A model generated the notes under the pieces. It was not told the DNA's origin and searched no databases. It worked only from the letters and a program-made list of their open reading frames with translations. From positions 372,001-436,000 of the forward strand of contig NZ_JAKRGA010000004.1 of assembly GCF_022347785.1 (NCBI RefSeq): a stretch of 64,000 bases of DNA. The letters run 5' to 3'. The stretch's first letter is position 1. The number at the start of each line of letters is the position of its first letter. Source of the stretch: Psychrobium sp. MM17-31 (GTDB lineage Bacteria; Pseudomonadota; Gammaproteobacteria; Enterobacterales; Psychrobiaceae). The translations under genes were made by a program, and so were the position numbers. Below are positions 1,361 to 3,946 of the stretch, one piece after another.

Positions 1361-2017
1361 ATGAAAAAAGTAGCGGTGATCTTATCTGGATCTGGCGTTT
1401 ATGATGGCGCTGAATTACAAGAGAGTATTTTAACTTTATTAAGCCTTGATCGCGCAGGTGTGTCGATTGAATGTTTTGCACCAAATAAAGCACAGCATCA
1501 CGTTATTAATCACTTAACGGGCGAAGAAGACACGTCTGCGACACGCAATGTTTTAGAAGAAGCTGCGCGTATTAATCGTGGTGATGTGAAAGATTTGACG
1601 ACTTGTGTAGCTAAAGACTTTGACGGTCTTGTGGTTGTTGGCGGTTTTGGTGTTGCAAAAAATCTATCGAACTTCGCATTTGAAGGTACCGCTTGCCAAG
1701 TGGATGAAACTGCTCTGGCAGTATTTAAAGATTTTGCGACTTTATCGCGTCCTTCGCTATATATGTGTATTGCTCCTGCGTTATTACCGGCGGTTTACGG
1801 TGAAGGTGTTGAGCTAACTATCGGCAATGATCCTGACACCATTCAAGCTATTGAGGCGATGGGCGGTAAACATATCGAGCGCACTGTTGAAGAGATTGCG
1901 GTTGACGAATCACGCAATGTGATTTCTACACCAGCCTACATGTTGGCGCAATCAATTTCACAAGCTGCTTCTGGTATCGAAAACGGCGTTGCGCAGCTAG
2001 TGAAGATGATGAAGTAA
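1361..2017 (+). CDS. elbB: Isoprenoid biosynthesis glyoxalase ElbB
   Basis: A 218-residue protein of the DJ-1/PfpI superfamily, ElbB/ES1 subgroup. It starts MKKVAVILSGSGVYDGAELQES, with the ES1-type conserved SGSGVYDGAE turn and a nucleophile region around SLYMCIAPALLP (Cys at about residue 136). ElbB has glyoxalase activity in vitro and has been linked genetically to isoprenoid synthesis in E. coli; the physiological substrate is unsettled. The start ATG follows an AAGGGA ribosome binding site. A Rho-independent terminator follows directly, so it is probably monocistronic. Length is that expected for the family. Confidence 0.93.
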   Translation: MKKVAVILSGSGVYDGAELQESILTLLSLDRAGVSIECFAPNKAQHHVINHLTGEEDTSATRNVLEEAARINRGDVKDLTTCVAKDFDGLVVVGGFGVAKNLSNFAFEGTACQVDETALAVFKDFATLSRPSLYMCIAPALLPAVYGEGVELTIGNDPDTIQAIEAMGGKHIERTVEEIAVDESRNVISTPAYMLAQSISQAASGIENGVAQLVKMMK

Positions 2018-2070: not shown

Positions 2071-2250
2071 TGAACTGTTTCTTTTTTGGTGTATCTACTC
2101 GTCAACGAAAAGGAGTGGTGCTCATTTCAATACATATTCCGTAAACTCGCCGTAAAAACGTCCCTGTTGGCTCAATTTTTCATCCGTGAAAAATAATGTT
2201 TACTCCATATATATCGAAGTAATTTGAGAGCAATGCTTTGAGTGAGCCGG

Positions 2251-2292
2251 ATAGAGAGAGCATAAAGCAATGTCACATCGCGCAGAGTGTGA
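2251..2292 (-). repeat. Degenerate copy of the RyhB-array module
   Basis: On the minus strand, about 20 nt beyond the terminator of the second RyhB-like RNA, the sequence again runs CACACTCTGCGC, then GATGTGACATTGC, then TATGCTCTCTCT. This is the order seen in the five intact modules at 2729-3204. The inverted repeat (plus-strand 2267-2281) is imperfect and no terminator hairpin follows. It looks like a decayed sixth module, which suggests that the second RyhB copy once had its own array. Confidence 0.55.
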
Positions 2293-2309
2293 CGATTTTA
2301 ACGTTGGAT

Positions 2310-2344
2310 AAAAAAGCGGCCGCGTATACCGAAGTATAGCGGCC
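2310..2344 (-). terminator. Terminator of RyhB copy B (UUCG tetraloop)
   Basis: On the minus strand GGCCGCTATAC pairs with GTATACGCGGCC around a TTCG loop and is followed by GCTTTTTT. This is a classical stable C(UUCG)G terminator hairpin immediately after the RyhB core. Confidence 0.88.
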
Positions 2345-2466
2345 TAAATAGCAATGTGAGCAATAGTCGTGTGCATCAATACCGTAAACATTGATACACA
2401 ACAATGAAAGCTGATAACAGACTGCGTTACTAGATTCATCGTCAGGAGATGTGTTTCGTAAAACAC
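2310..2466 (-). ncRNA. ryhB: RyhB-like iron-responsive small RNA, copy B
   Basis: The predicted RNA of about 157 nt runs on the minus strand from a start near 2466 to a terminator whose T run ends at 2310. At 2348-2371 the minus strand reads CACGACTATTGCTCACATTG followed by CTAT. This closely matches the target-pairing core of enterobacterial RyhB (CACGACATTGCTCACATTGC). Upstream lie a sigma-70-type promoter and an overlapping Fur box. In the family RyhB is made when iron is scarce and, with Hfq, represses mRNAs for iron-using proteins. It is strongly similar over its whole length, promoter included, to copy A at 3232-3393. Identification rests on core, Fur box and terminator together; transcript ends are inferred. 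Confidence 0.85.
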
Positions 2467-2472
2467 GTGTTA

Positions 2473-2500
2473 ATAATAATCATTCTCATTTGTGTGTCAA
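2473..2500 (-). promoter_or_regulatory. Promoter of RyhB copy B with overlapping Fur box
   Basis: On the minus strand the -35 box TTGACA (2495-2500) and the -10 box TATTAT (2473-2478) are 16 bp apart. The 7-1-7 element at plus-strand 2474-2488, TAATAATCATTCTCA, matches the Fur pattern TGATAATNATTATCA at 13 of 15 positions. It lies between and across the promoter boxes, the expected position for iron-dependent repression. Confidence 0.82.
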
Positions 2501-2728: not shown

Positions 2729-2810
2729 AAAAAAGAGGCCGCATATACCGAAGTATAGTGGCCCCCTAATTATTAGAAAGTATAGCAATGTCACATTGCA
2801 CCGAGTGTGA
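2729..2810 (-). ncRNA. RyhB-array module 5
   Basis: Last module. Its perfect inverted repeat GCAATGTCACATTGC is at 2785-2799. It is followed on the minus strand by ACTTTCTAATAATTAG and a UUCG-loop terminator (GGCCACTATAC / GTATATGCGGCC, then TCTTTTTT). Calling it an RNA is inference from the seed-plus-terminator architecture. Confidence 0.55.
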
Positions 2811-2826
2811 AGTTTTTGAAAGAAAC

Positions 2827-2910
2827 AAAAAAAGAAGCCGCATATACCGAAGTATAGTGGTCCCCTAATTATTTAGAGAGCATAGCAATGTCACATTGCA
2901 CCAAGTGTGA
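2827..2910 (-). ncRNA. RyhB-array module 4
   Basis: Perfect inverted repeat at 2885-2899 and a UUCG-loop terminator with a seven-T tail. It differs from its neighbours by one extra A in the CTAAATAATTAG spacer. Same order of elements as the other modules. Confidence 0.55.
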
Positions 2911-2926
2911 AGTTTTCGAAAGAAAT

Positions 2927-3011
2927 AAAAAAGAGGCCACGACATTGTGAACGATGAAGTGGTCCCCTAATTATTAGAGAGCATAGCAATGTCACATTGC
3001 ACCGAGTGTGA
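2927..3011 (-). ncRNA. RyhB-array module 3
   Basis: Perfect inverted repeat at 2986-3000. The terminator here is of another type: CCAC ... GTGGCC with a long loop, TTCATCGTTCACAATGTC, ending in TCTTTTTT. Confidence 0.55.
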
Positions 3012-3028
3012 AGTTTTCGAAAGAAACA

Positions 3029-3113
3029 AGAAAAGAGGCTACGACATTGTTAAAGATGAAGTGGCCCCCTAATTATTAGAGAGCATAGCAATGTCACATT
3101 GCACAGAGTGTGA
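3029..3113 (-). ncRNA. RyhB-array module 2
   Basis: Perfect inverted repeat at 3088-3102. The long-loop terminator resembles that of module 3, but its stem is weaker (GGCCAC / GTAGCC) and its T run is interrupted (CTTTTCTTG), so termination is probably leaky. Confidence 0.5.
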
Positions 3114-3129
3114 AGTTTTTGAAAGAAGC

Positions 3130-3204
3130 AAAAAAAGAGGCCGCATATACCGAAGTATAGTGGCTCCTGAACAGTAGCAAAGAGTATAGCAATGGAACAT
3201 TGCC
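3130..3204 (-). ncRNA. RyhB-array module 1 (diverged)
   Basis: First module after RyhB copy A. The inverted repeat is imperfect (GCAATGGAACATTGC at 3189-3203) and the flanking TTCACACTCGG element is not recognisable. ATTGCTATACTCT and a UUCG-loop terminator with seven T remain. Confidence 0.5.
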
Positions 3205-3231
3205 CAGCGCATTTAATTGGTGAAGATACAT

Positions 3232-3268
3232 AAAAAAGAGGCCGCATCACGATGTTTTGTGAGCGGCC
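3232..3268 (-). terminator. Terminator of RyhB copy A
   Basis: Minus-strand stem GGCCGCTCAC / GTGATGCGGCC followed by TCTTTTTT, directly after the RyhB core. Confidence 0.85.
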
Positions 3269-3393
3269 CGAATAATAGCAATGTGAGCAATAGTCGTGTG
3301 TATCGACACCGTAAATATCAATACACAACAATGAAAACTGATAACAAACATCATTATTAGATTCATCGTCAGGAGATGTGTTTCGTAAAACAC
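3232..3393 (-). ncRNA. ryhB: RyhB-like iron-responsive small RNA, copy A
   Basis: The predicted RNA of about 162 nt has a start near 3393 and a terminator T run ending at 3232. The RyhB core CACGACTATTGCTCACATTG + CTAT lies at 3275-3298 on the minus strand. The stretch from the Fur box to the core is nearly the same as copy B, with about a dozen substitutions. The terminator differs: stem GGCCGCTCAC / GTGATGCGGCC with an AAAACATC loop. In the family RyhB lowers synthesis of iron-containing enzymes during iron starvation. Immediately downstream on the same strand begins the five-module array, which any readthrough would include. Confidence 0.87.
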
Positions 3394-3399
3394 GTGTTA

Positions 3400-3429
3400 A
3401 TAATAATTATTCTCATTAGTGTTTGTCAA
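3400..3429 (-). promoter_or_regulatory. Promoter of RyhB copy A with overlapping Fur box
   Basis: Minus-strand TTGACA (3424-3429) and TATTAT (3400-3405) are separated by 18 bp. A Fur element lies at plus-strand 3401-3415, TAATAATTATTCTCA, matching 13 of 15 positions of the 7-1-7 Fur pattern. It covers the spacer and the -10 box, as expected for repression when iron is plentiful. Confidence 0.83.
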
Positions 3430-3640: not shown

Positions 3641-3946
3641 ATGGATAATCAGCAAAAACAACGCATTATTGAAGAAAGTTGGCAGCATCATAATGAAATT
3701 GAGGCAGCTTATTTAGCGTTAGATATTAGTGCCAAAGACGAGGAGTGGCCTGAGAAACAACGACTTTTGCTTGCTGATATGGCGTTGCACTTATTACAAA
3801 CTGCGTTAAATCCTGAGCAATTGGATGACGAAAAATTGAGAAACAATCTTTACGCCATCCTGACCATTAGCGAGCTCTACCTTCCTGATGCCGATCTGGC
3901 ACACGCCAAAGAGAAAGTGCTTTCTTTGATGCCAAGCGACGATTAA
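3641..3946 (+). CDS. Uncharacterised 101-residue protein
   Basis: A small acidic cytoplasmic protein, predicted mostly helical (MDNQQKQRIIEESWQHHNEI at the N-terminus), with no signal peptide or membrane segment. The ATG at 3641 is preferred because AAGGA lies 9 bp before it; a TTG at 3617 in frame has no such site. It overlaps the convergent HD-hydrolase gene by 4 bp. No family was recognised. Codon use looks like that of its neighbours, and I regard it as a real gene. Confidence 0.72.
   Translation: MDNQQKQRIIEESWQHHNEIEAAYLALDISAKDEEWPEKQRLLLADMALHLLQTALNPEQLDDEKLRNNLYAILTISELYLPDADLAHAKEKVLSLMPSDD

Follow-up and report, generated by a model that had tools for sequence, protein, structure and literature searches.

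A 64,000-nucleotide stretch of the genome of Psychrobium sp. MM17-31 (referred to throughout, at its full length, as the window) carries on its minus strand an array of five tandem modules, which directly follows one of two genes for small RNAs of the RyhB type. As judged from its sequence, this array is real, occurs in three genomes that belong to a single genus, and is constrained at the stem of a short hairpin encoded by its modules; its function is proposed. The modules lie in a fixed order on one strand, have no detectable promoter of their own, finish in terminator-like ends, and keep their stem in two species. The case is one of sequence past an sRNA terminator that has turned into a repeated unit, in which the stem holding the seed core stays constant and most else drifts, within a few related genomes. 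The explanation that we favour, at slightly less than an even chance, is that the array arose by tandem expansion of RyhB's 3' domain and would be transcribed by read-through from the gene ahead of it, yielding longer isoforms with self-masked seed cores.

The two parent genes, each with a Fur box, are found on the minus strand at approximately 3396-3232 (RyhB-A) and 2469-2310 (RyhB-B), and are spaced by 927 nucleotides from start to start. The pair is flanked by elbB (1361-2017, plus strand, identified by a match to NCBIfam ElbB) and by a gene for a protein of 101 amino acids (3641-3946, plus strand), which adjoins the RyhB-A promoter and displays no match to a Pfam or NCBIfam family. The parts of the two genes are as follows.

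3399..3429, minus strand: RyhB-A promoter (TTGACA-18-TATTAT, 11/12) with the overlapping Fur-box-like sequence AATGAGAATAATTATTATT
3232..3396, minus strand: RyhB-A, approximately 165 nucleotides from its predicted start, with the core ACTATTGCTCACATTGCTATT at 3274-3294 and a terminator hairpin with a T-run at 3239-3232
2472..2500, minus strand: RyhB-B promoter (TTGACA-16-TATTAT, 11/12) with a Fur-box-like sequence
2310..2469, minus strand: RyhB-B, approximately 160 nucleotides from its predicted start, with the core at 2347-2367 and a terminator T-run at 2315-2310

Both genes share the TTGACA element, the Fur-box-like sequence AATGAGAAT(A/G)ATTATTATT, the core ACTATTGCTCACATTGCTATT and a GGCC-rich terminator. 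At the level of sequence, both display the Fur box overlapping a strong promoter that is expected of RyhB, and both carry its UUGCUCACAUUGCU core and intrinsic terminator. Against the Rfam model RF00057 they score 30.6 bits (RyhB-A) and 24.5 bits (RyhB-B), below the gathering cut-off of 55, and the label 'RyhB-type' is therefore drawn from the promoter, the core and genus-wide conservation rather than from Rfam membership. The 21-nucleotide core is identical across 15 RyhB copies in eight of the nine genomes of the genus; a scripted pattern match placed the TTGACA and Fur-box layout ahead of 14 of these copies, and the one copy outside that pattern has a TTGACA element and a Fur-box-like stretch as well. 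Two copies are present in five of the nine genomes (among them the own genome and that of a relative, G007) and three in G005, on two contigs. Tandem duplication of RyhB is frequent in this genus, being found also in G003, G005, G006 and G008 (loci L083, L084, L091, L093 and L101).

A first-pass annotation of this DNA had placed five same-strand modules of approximately 100 nucleotides directly after RyhB-A, and that arrangement was confirmed (minus strand, 3231-2729). The units are spaced by 99-102 nucleotides (period 102 by TRF), and the array extends from the RyhB-A terminator to a gap of approximately 230 nucleotides ahead of the RyhB-B promoter. Each A-unit consists, in order, of a 5' flank, a hairpin of the form GCAATG-N3-CATTGC, a short UC- and AU-rich linker, a terminator-like second hairpin, and a T-run. 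An extra module with a GCGATG arm (B1), absent from the first-pass annotation, lies behind RyhB-B, and a tentative, possibly decayed sixth unit follows the fifth. The bit scores given below are those of a covariance model built from eight aligned modules, which lists three of the five window modules under default filters and all five with the filters off, and which finds no match in the decayed unit.

3132..3231, minus strand: module A1, hairpin 3189-3203 with loop TTC, linker, terminator-like hairpin and T7; 80.8 bits, and a fold
3032..3131, minus strand: module A2, hairpin 3088-3102 with loop TGA, linker, weaker terminator; 100.7 bits, and folds
2930..3029, minus strand: module A3, hairpin 2986-3000 with loop TGA, linker, terminator-like hairpin and T-run; 98.3 bits
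2829..2928, minus strand: module A4, hairpin 2885-2899 with loop TGA, linker, terminator-like hairpin and T-run; 96.1 bits
2729..2828, minus strand: module A5, hairpin 2785-2799 with loop TGA, linker, terminator-like hairpin and T-run; 108.3 bits
2678..2728, minus strand: tentatively, a decayed sixth unit behind A5; the stretch 2678-2744 matches the module family at 61% without gaps
2217..2309, minus strand: module B1 after RyhB-B, without a terminator, GCGATG-TGA-CATTGC at 2267-2281; 13.5 bits, E 0.089

Every module had further been described as containing the RyhB seed and, immediately before it, a 9-nucleotide stretch complementary to RyhB. The seed ACATTGCTAT and the anti-seed GCAATGTGA are present in four of the five units; the first unit departs from both, carrying CCATTGCTAT in place of the seed and only seven complementary nucleotides (GCAATGT). 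The DNA inverted repeat GCAATGTCACATTGC was borne out in four of the five units, and as RNA the module repeat corresponds to six base pairs closing a 3-nucleotide loop. The form GCAATG-N3-CATTGC occurs six times in the 4.17-Mb genome (five times in the array, and once inside an open reading frame of 502 amino acids) versus once in a backward-read control; the clustering of this palindrome in the array is beyond chance. The CATTGC hairpin by itself fixes six of the nine anti-seed bases, so that the extra evidence for a match to RyhB comes from the three loop bases alone, for which arithmetic gives a chance of 1/64.

A promoter scan found no promoter inside the array (2729-3231, either strand), nor, over the same interval and both strands, the Fur-controlled promoter that modules would possess as RyhB members; the idea of a promoter within each module was rejected in the absence of a hit. 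The scan returned six hits on both strands, none of them in the array, versus a shuffled expectation of 5.0; three of them are on the minus strand, and of these three the two RyhB promoters alone reached a score of 11/12. By eye, A1 and A5 contain a TATACT-like stretch after the hairpin, without a clear -35 element, from which transcription would start within the linker. The claim that every unit has a terminator was upheld, each A-unit ending in a minus-strand hairpin and T-run. That of A2 is weaker, its tail reading TCTTTTCTTG, and when folded without the tail its linker hairpin wins over the terminator. With the tail included, all eight aligned modules have a terminator-like hairpin as the most stable fold of the sequence 3' of their first hairpin; in a full-unit fold of A4 the linker hairpin competes with it. 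A terminator scan (three found, versus 1.0 expected) left the module terminators unlisted and flagged three small hairpins instead, and their assignment thus rests on direct folds. On the plus strand, between 2200 and 3420, two T5 runs (2813 and 3116) are found approximately 14 nucleotides past a palindrome.

The first hairpin forms in single-unit folds of all eight aligned modules (the bare 15-mer contributes -4.2 kcal/mol in each), and the lowest-energy folds of window B1 and of the G007 module A2 are without it. In a fold of the full 670-nucleotide read-through RNA, the arms of A1 pair with those of A5 and the arms of A2 with those of A4, A3 alone retains its own hairpin, and single-hairpin probabilities range from 0.00 to 0.33; the module hairpin may therefore not form in long isoforms, which may instead adopt a nested fold spanning several modules. 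The linker hairpin was considered as a second structure and set aside, being mostly not clearly beyond mononucleotide shuffles: the fraction of shuffles as stable was 0.07-0.08 for A4 and two G007 modules, 0.11-0.17 for A1, A3 and A5, and 0.25 for the module of a third genome (G001), with A2 as the exception (0.00) and with no linker hairpin in G007 B2.

Modules are present in three of the nine genomes of the genus: the own genome (G000), G007, and G001, in which the array is interrupted by a contig end. Four of the 15 RyhB copies bear modules, all of them in G000 and G007, and the array copy number, decayed copies counted, is 5 + 1 in the window and 2 + 2 in G007, where two modules lie behind each of the two RyhB genes and one of the four is decayed. 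G001, whose genome is 80% complete and which is the ninth genome, not among the eight with the identical RyhB core, has at least one module, ended by the contig break, with CCT preceding CATTGC. The other 11 RyhB copies (six genomes) are without modules in the 190 nucleotides from each core, and without an exact palindrome. When the module model was run on eight loci of module-less relatives, it produced ten hits with E<1, all on RyhB genes, two of these ten rows being one copy present in two loci. Across the order, the pattern of a RyhB core followed by the hairpin was found in two of 394 genomes, both of this genus, with an exact pattern (CACATTGCT-N55-85-GCAATG-N3-CATTGC) that would miss diverged cores and arrays at contig ends, such as that of G001.

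Comparison of the window with G007 indicates which part of the module is constrained. All 15 module pairs agree at every position of both 6-nucleotide stem arms (12 positions), whereas identity outside the stem is 29% in the loop, 31% in the 5' flank and 53% in the part 3' of the hairpin; it follows that the stem is what selection keeps. Twelve identical positions at a background of 46% have an expectation of ~8e-5, an arithmetic value that assumes independent columns and stems from one divergence and related copies. These pairs represent five window modules (A1-A5) and three G007 modules (A1, B1 and B2) in the eight-module alignment, which leaves out window B1, the decayed unit after A5, G007 A2 (GTAATGTTTCATTCC, its stem broken) and the partial module of G001; adding B1 gives the stem one G-U variant, and adding G007 A2 breaks it. 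Because the stem never varies in the eight modules, they display no covariation that would prove an RNA structure; the arms are conserved both in sequence and in their complementarity to each other. Over a 209-nucleotide stretch that contains the promoter and gene of RyhB-A, the own genome and G007 are 89% identical. The existence of decayed or partly decayed copies (the broken stem of G007 A2, and window B1 with its G-U pair and no terminator) indicates that single modules are dispensable.

The module model also matches the RyhB genes of the window, at 2310-2379 (E 0.0004) and 3232-3321 (E 0.0059), and, with weak scores, those of relatives that have no modules (lowest E 0.0088, in L083); outside the stem the similarity between modules and RyhB is weak, and much of the model match sits in the terminator region. 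Shared terminator hairpins are found on the minus strand of the window (2305-2345, of RyhB-B, and 2729-2770, 2829-2870 and 3131-3165) and in locus L082 (1770-1805, 2167-2205 and 2265-2300). In the window and in G007 alike, some modules have the same terminator as RyhB-B, yet these terminators differ between the two, which is a sign of local gene conversion. Together with the model match, the shared terminators point to a duplication of the 3' part of RyhB, from which the modules would descend, followed by local homogenisation.

The first-pass annotation had suggested three roles for the array, among them that of a RyhB sponge. A read-through RNA with up to four copies of GCAAUGUGA, and a 7-nucleotide version in A1, would base-pair with both RyhB RNAs at their seeds and buffer leaky RyhB, above all where termination is least efficient (iron-replete growth). 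The predicted 9-nucleotide duplex between RyhB and a module is worth -13.0 kcal/mol versus -4.2 for the internal hairpin, so that RyhB could be bound in this species; cofolds with RyhB were better than most anti-seed-shuffled controls for all five window modules (among 60 shuffles, 0-3.3% did as well); 3'ETS-leuZ is a described case of an RNA that sponges RyhB (available sections of PMC8383071); and E. coli ryhB termination increases on iron depletion (according to the accessible part of PMC4509938). The relative, however, does not follow. The complementarity to the RyhB seed, which a sponge would be expected to conserve, extends over 9 nucleotides in four of the five A-modules (and in B1, including one G-U) but in none of the four modules of G007 (GCAATGCCA, GCAATGCCG, GCAATGTCA and the decayed GTAATGTTT), none of which contains GCAATGTGA; where the loop lengthens the match from 6-7 to 9 nucleotides, four of the five A-units read TGA, and the G007 loops read CCA, CCG, TCA or (in the decayed copy) TTT. 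None of three tested G007 modules beat its shuffles in cofolds (48-82% as good), a result qualified by a control in which the shuffled anti-seed arm also loses the internal hairpin, favouring the shuffles; two of these three cofolds still put eight pairs on the RyhB seed region. Furthermore, one arm would suffice for a sponge, yet both are invariant, and the sponge would be co-produced with its own prey. A sponge array as a conserved role is weakened accordingly, the absence of the 9-nucleotide complementarity that had been named as counting against it being found in G007, the one relative with modules readable whole, and we regard the reading as unlikely; the anti-seed arm may bind RyhB directly as a derived extra of this species. 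A termination-coupled limiter is also conceivable, if distinctly doubtful, in which leaky termination under iron-replete conditions would produce long RNAs whose five seed/anti-seed hairpins trap or dilute RyhB, and in which loss of iron would sharpen termination, silence the array and free RyhB; a single promoter would then drive the regulator as well as its antagonist, with a threshold tuned by the length of the array.

A sponge needs the anti-seed arm alone and a sibling regulator the seed arm alone; that both are kept while the loop is free fits a seed core masked by its own anti-seed, or a DNA dyad. In the latter case GCAATG-N3-CATTGC would be the site of a dimeric protein, repeated every ~100 bp for use as an operator or for titration, as its invariant half-sites, free 3-bp centre and regular spacing might suggest. 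Exact sites in the module genomes, however, cluster downstream of RyhB, with one elsewhere in the own genome (within the 502-amino-acid reading frame) and none elsewhere in G007, and sites with at most one mismatch number 23 and 24 in two module genomes (array counted) versus 13, 19, 25 and 17 in four module-less mates of the genus. All six genomes exceed the backward control (4-9), and the excess is therefore not tied to modules; a regulon-wide operator was rejected for lack of module-linked enrichment over those mates, and an operator array is very improbable. Nor is a selfish or neutral tandem repeat a probable account, in which a RyhB terminator segment would have been multiplied through slippage and kept uniform through gene conversion, and would act at most as back-up terminators ahead of RyhB-B and elbB: variable copy number, decayed copies, and terminator sequences shared within the window and within G007 all fit it, but drift leaves the 12 identical stem positions at the 46% background (~8e-5) unexplained. 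Among the three roles in the first-pass annotation, the self-masked seed has the best support, since neither arm differs between the two species and only the loop between them varies freely. The third of those roles, graded products of leaky termination, is plausible given the lack of a module promoter in the scan, the terminator-like ends of the A-units and the precedent of E. coli RyhB.

According to the favoured explanation (a read-through expansion of the RyhB 3' domain), transcription would start solely at the Fur-controlled RyhB-A promoter, most transcripts would end at the RyhB-A terminator, and a fraction would continue into the array, where polymerases would transcribe between one and five modules until a module terminator halts them. 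A ladder of RyhB isoforms in steps of ~100 nucleotides, from about 265 to 665 nucleotides, would be the product. Each added module would provide a fresh U-rich 3' end, of the type required by Hfq-dependent sRNAs, and the module terminators could restore such an end to extended RNAs. Each would also add the RyhB seed core CAUUGC, held in a hairpin by the anti-seed arm GCAAUG and opened only by a strong partner or Hfq. Most likely, the module is conserved as an auxiliary seed unit of RyhB type that masks itself, through which the read-through RNA would become functional in iron-responsive pairing, or would at least do it no harm. If true, the array would represent a natural use of terminator leak, either to make graded isoforms or to limit an iron-response sRNA from within its own locus. 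The array lends itself to short, clean mutants that would reveal how sRNA activity depends on seed masking and termination.

The earlier statement that no such system has been described is too strong as to kind, since the read-through of PrrF1-PrrF2 to PrrH provides a tandem precedent (PMC2851614, in the sections available). In Pseudomonas aeruginosa, transcription past the PrrF1 intrinsic terminator yields the longer PrrH, which has its own regulation (excerpts of PMC2851614 and PMC4211561). This closest precedent, as far as those excerpts go, shares with the present locus the tandem Fur-controlled siblings, which are seen here, and the read-through, which is proposed here; it differs in that PrrF2 is itself a complete sibling under a Fur site of its own, whereas the present locus has, between its two siblings, five units that resemble the 3' part of RyhB, carry seed-core hairpins and show no detectable promoter. 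The available portions of the same two papers contain no mention of repeats between PrrF1 and PrrF2. RyhB siblings in more than one copy are known from Yersinia and Salmonella (sibling review PMC4211561, in part). The parent genes resemble RyhB (RF00057) in their Fur box, CUCACAUUGCU core, terminator and multiple copies, and are unlike it in their sub-gathering score, their longer 5' part, and the modules behind them in three genomes.

Leaky sRNA terminators that give rise to extended RNAs, as proposed here, have been described for SgrS and RyhB: in the accessible sections of that study, the termination efficiency of E. coli ryhB is put at ~80% for an hfq- strain, growing cells frequently read through its terminator, and 3'-extended RyhB, whose extensions ended in a different terminator, does not bind Hfq (PMC4509938). 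The extension in that work was an engineered second terminator, as far as those sections describe it, whereas the present array is natural and has a conserved stem. The E. coli 3'ETS-leuZ is an RNA by-product that sponges RyhB (PMC8383071, in part). It is alike in being a by-product sponge, as in the sponge reading, but in the part of that account available it is released from a tRNA precursor and not from the ryhB locus. To our knowledge, it is without a seed copy of its own. Among the matches listed from the open-licence PMC literature, no promoterless array of seed hairpins was found.

Targets were considered for both the modules and their parent genes. The complement of the module seed and linker, GAGCATAGCAATG, resembles a start region; the exact 13-mer occurs three times in the own genome, always in the array, and near-matches with at most two mismatches number 113 on both strands of that genome versus 51 in the backward control, an excess that could be target sites or codon bias. 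Of the 113, 27 were inspected by eye, and the modules may have targets among them. In the sodB leader of the own genome (L145, ~1430-1500), AATGTGAGC lies upstream of the start codon and is complementary to the RyhB core, which makes sodB a possible RyhB target; that module seeds would target sodB was rejected, as its leader matches the CUCACAUU part of RyhB, which is absent from the modules. A RyhB-like promoter with TTGACA and a Fur-box-like sequence is also present at L139 1500-1535 (G008, contig 249), with no RyhB core in the stretch examined. Finally, the 5' part of the RyhB genes (3360-3396 and 2430-2469, minus strand) contains, in folds of the window copies, a small hairpin followed by CTCCTGAC, a motif present in 13 of 14 promoter-proximal RyhB stretches (window and L082-L101 copies; the exception reads CTCCAAAC) that is possibly a second conserved pairing region of RyhB apart from the seed, of anti-Shine-Dalgarno type.
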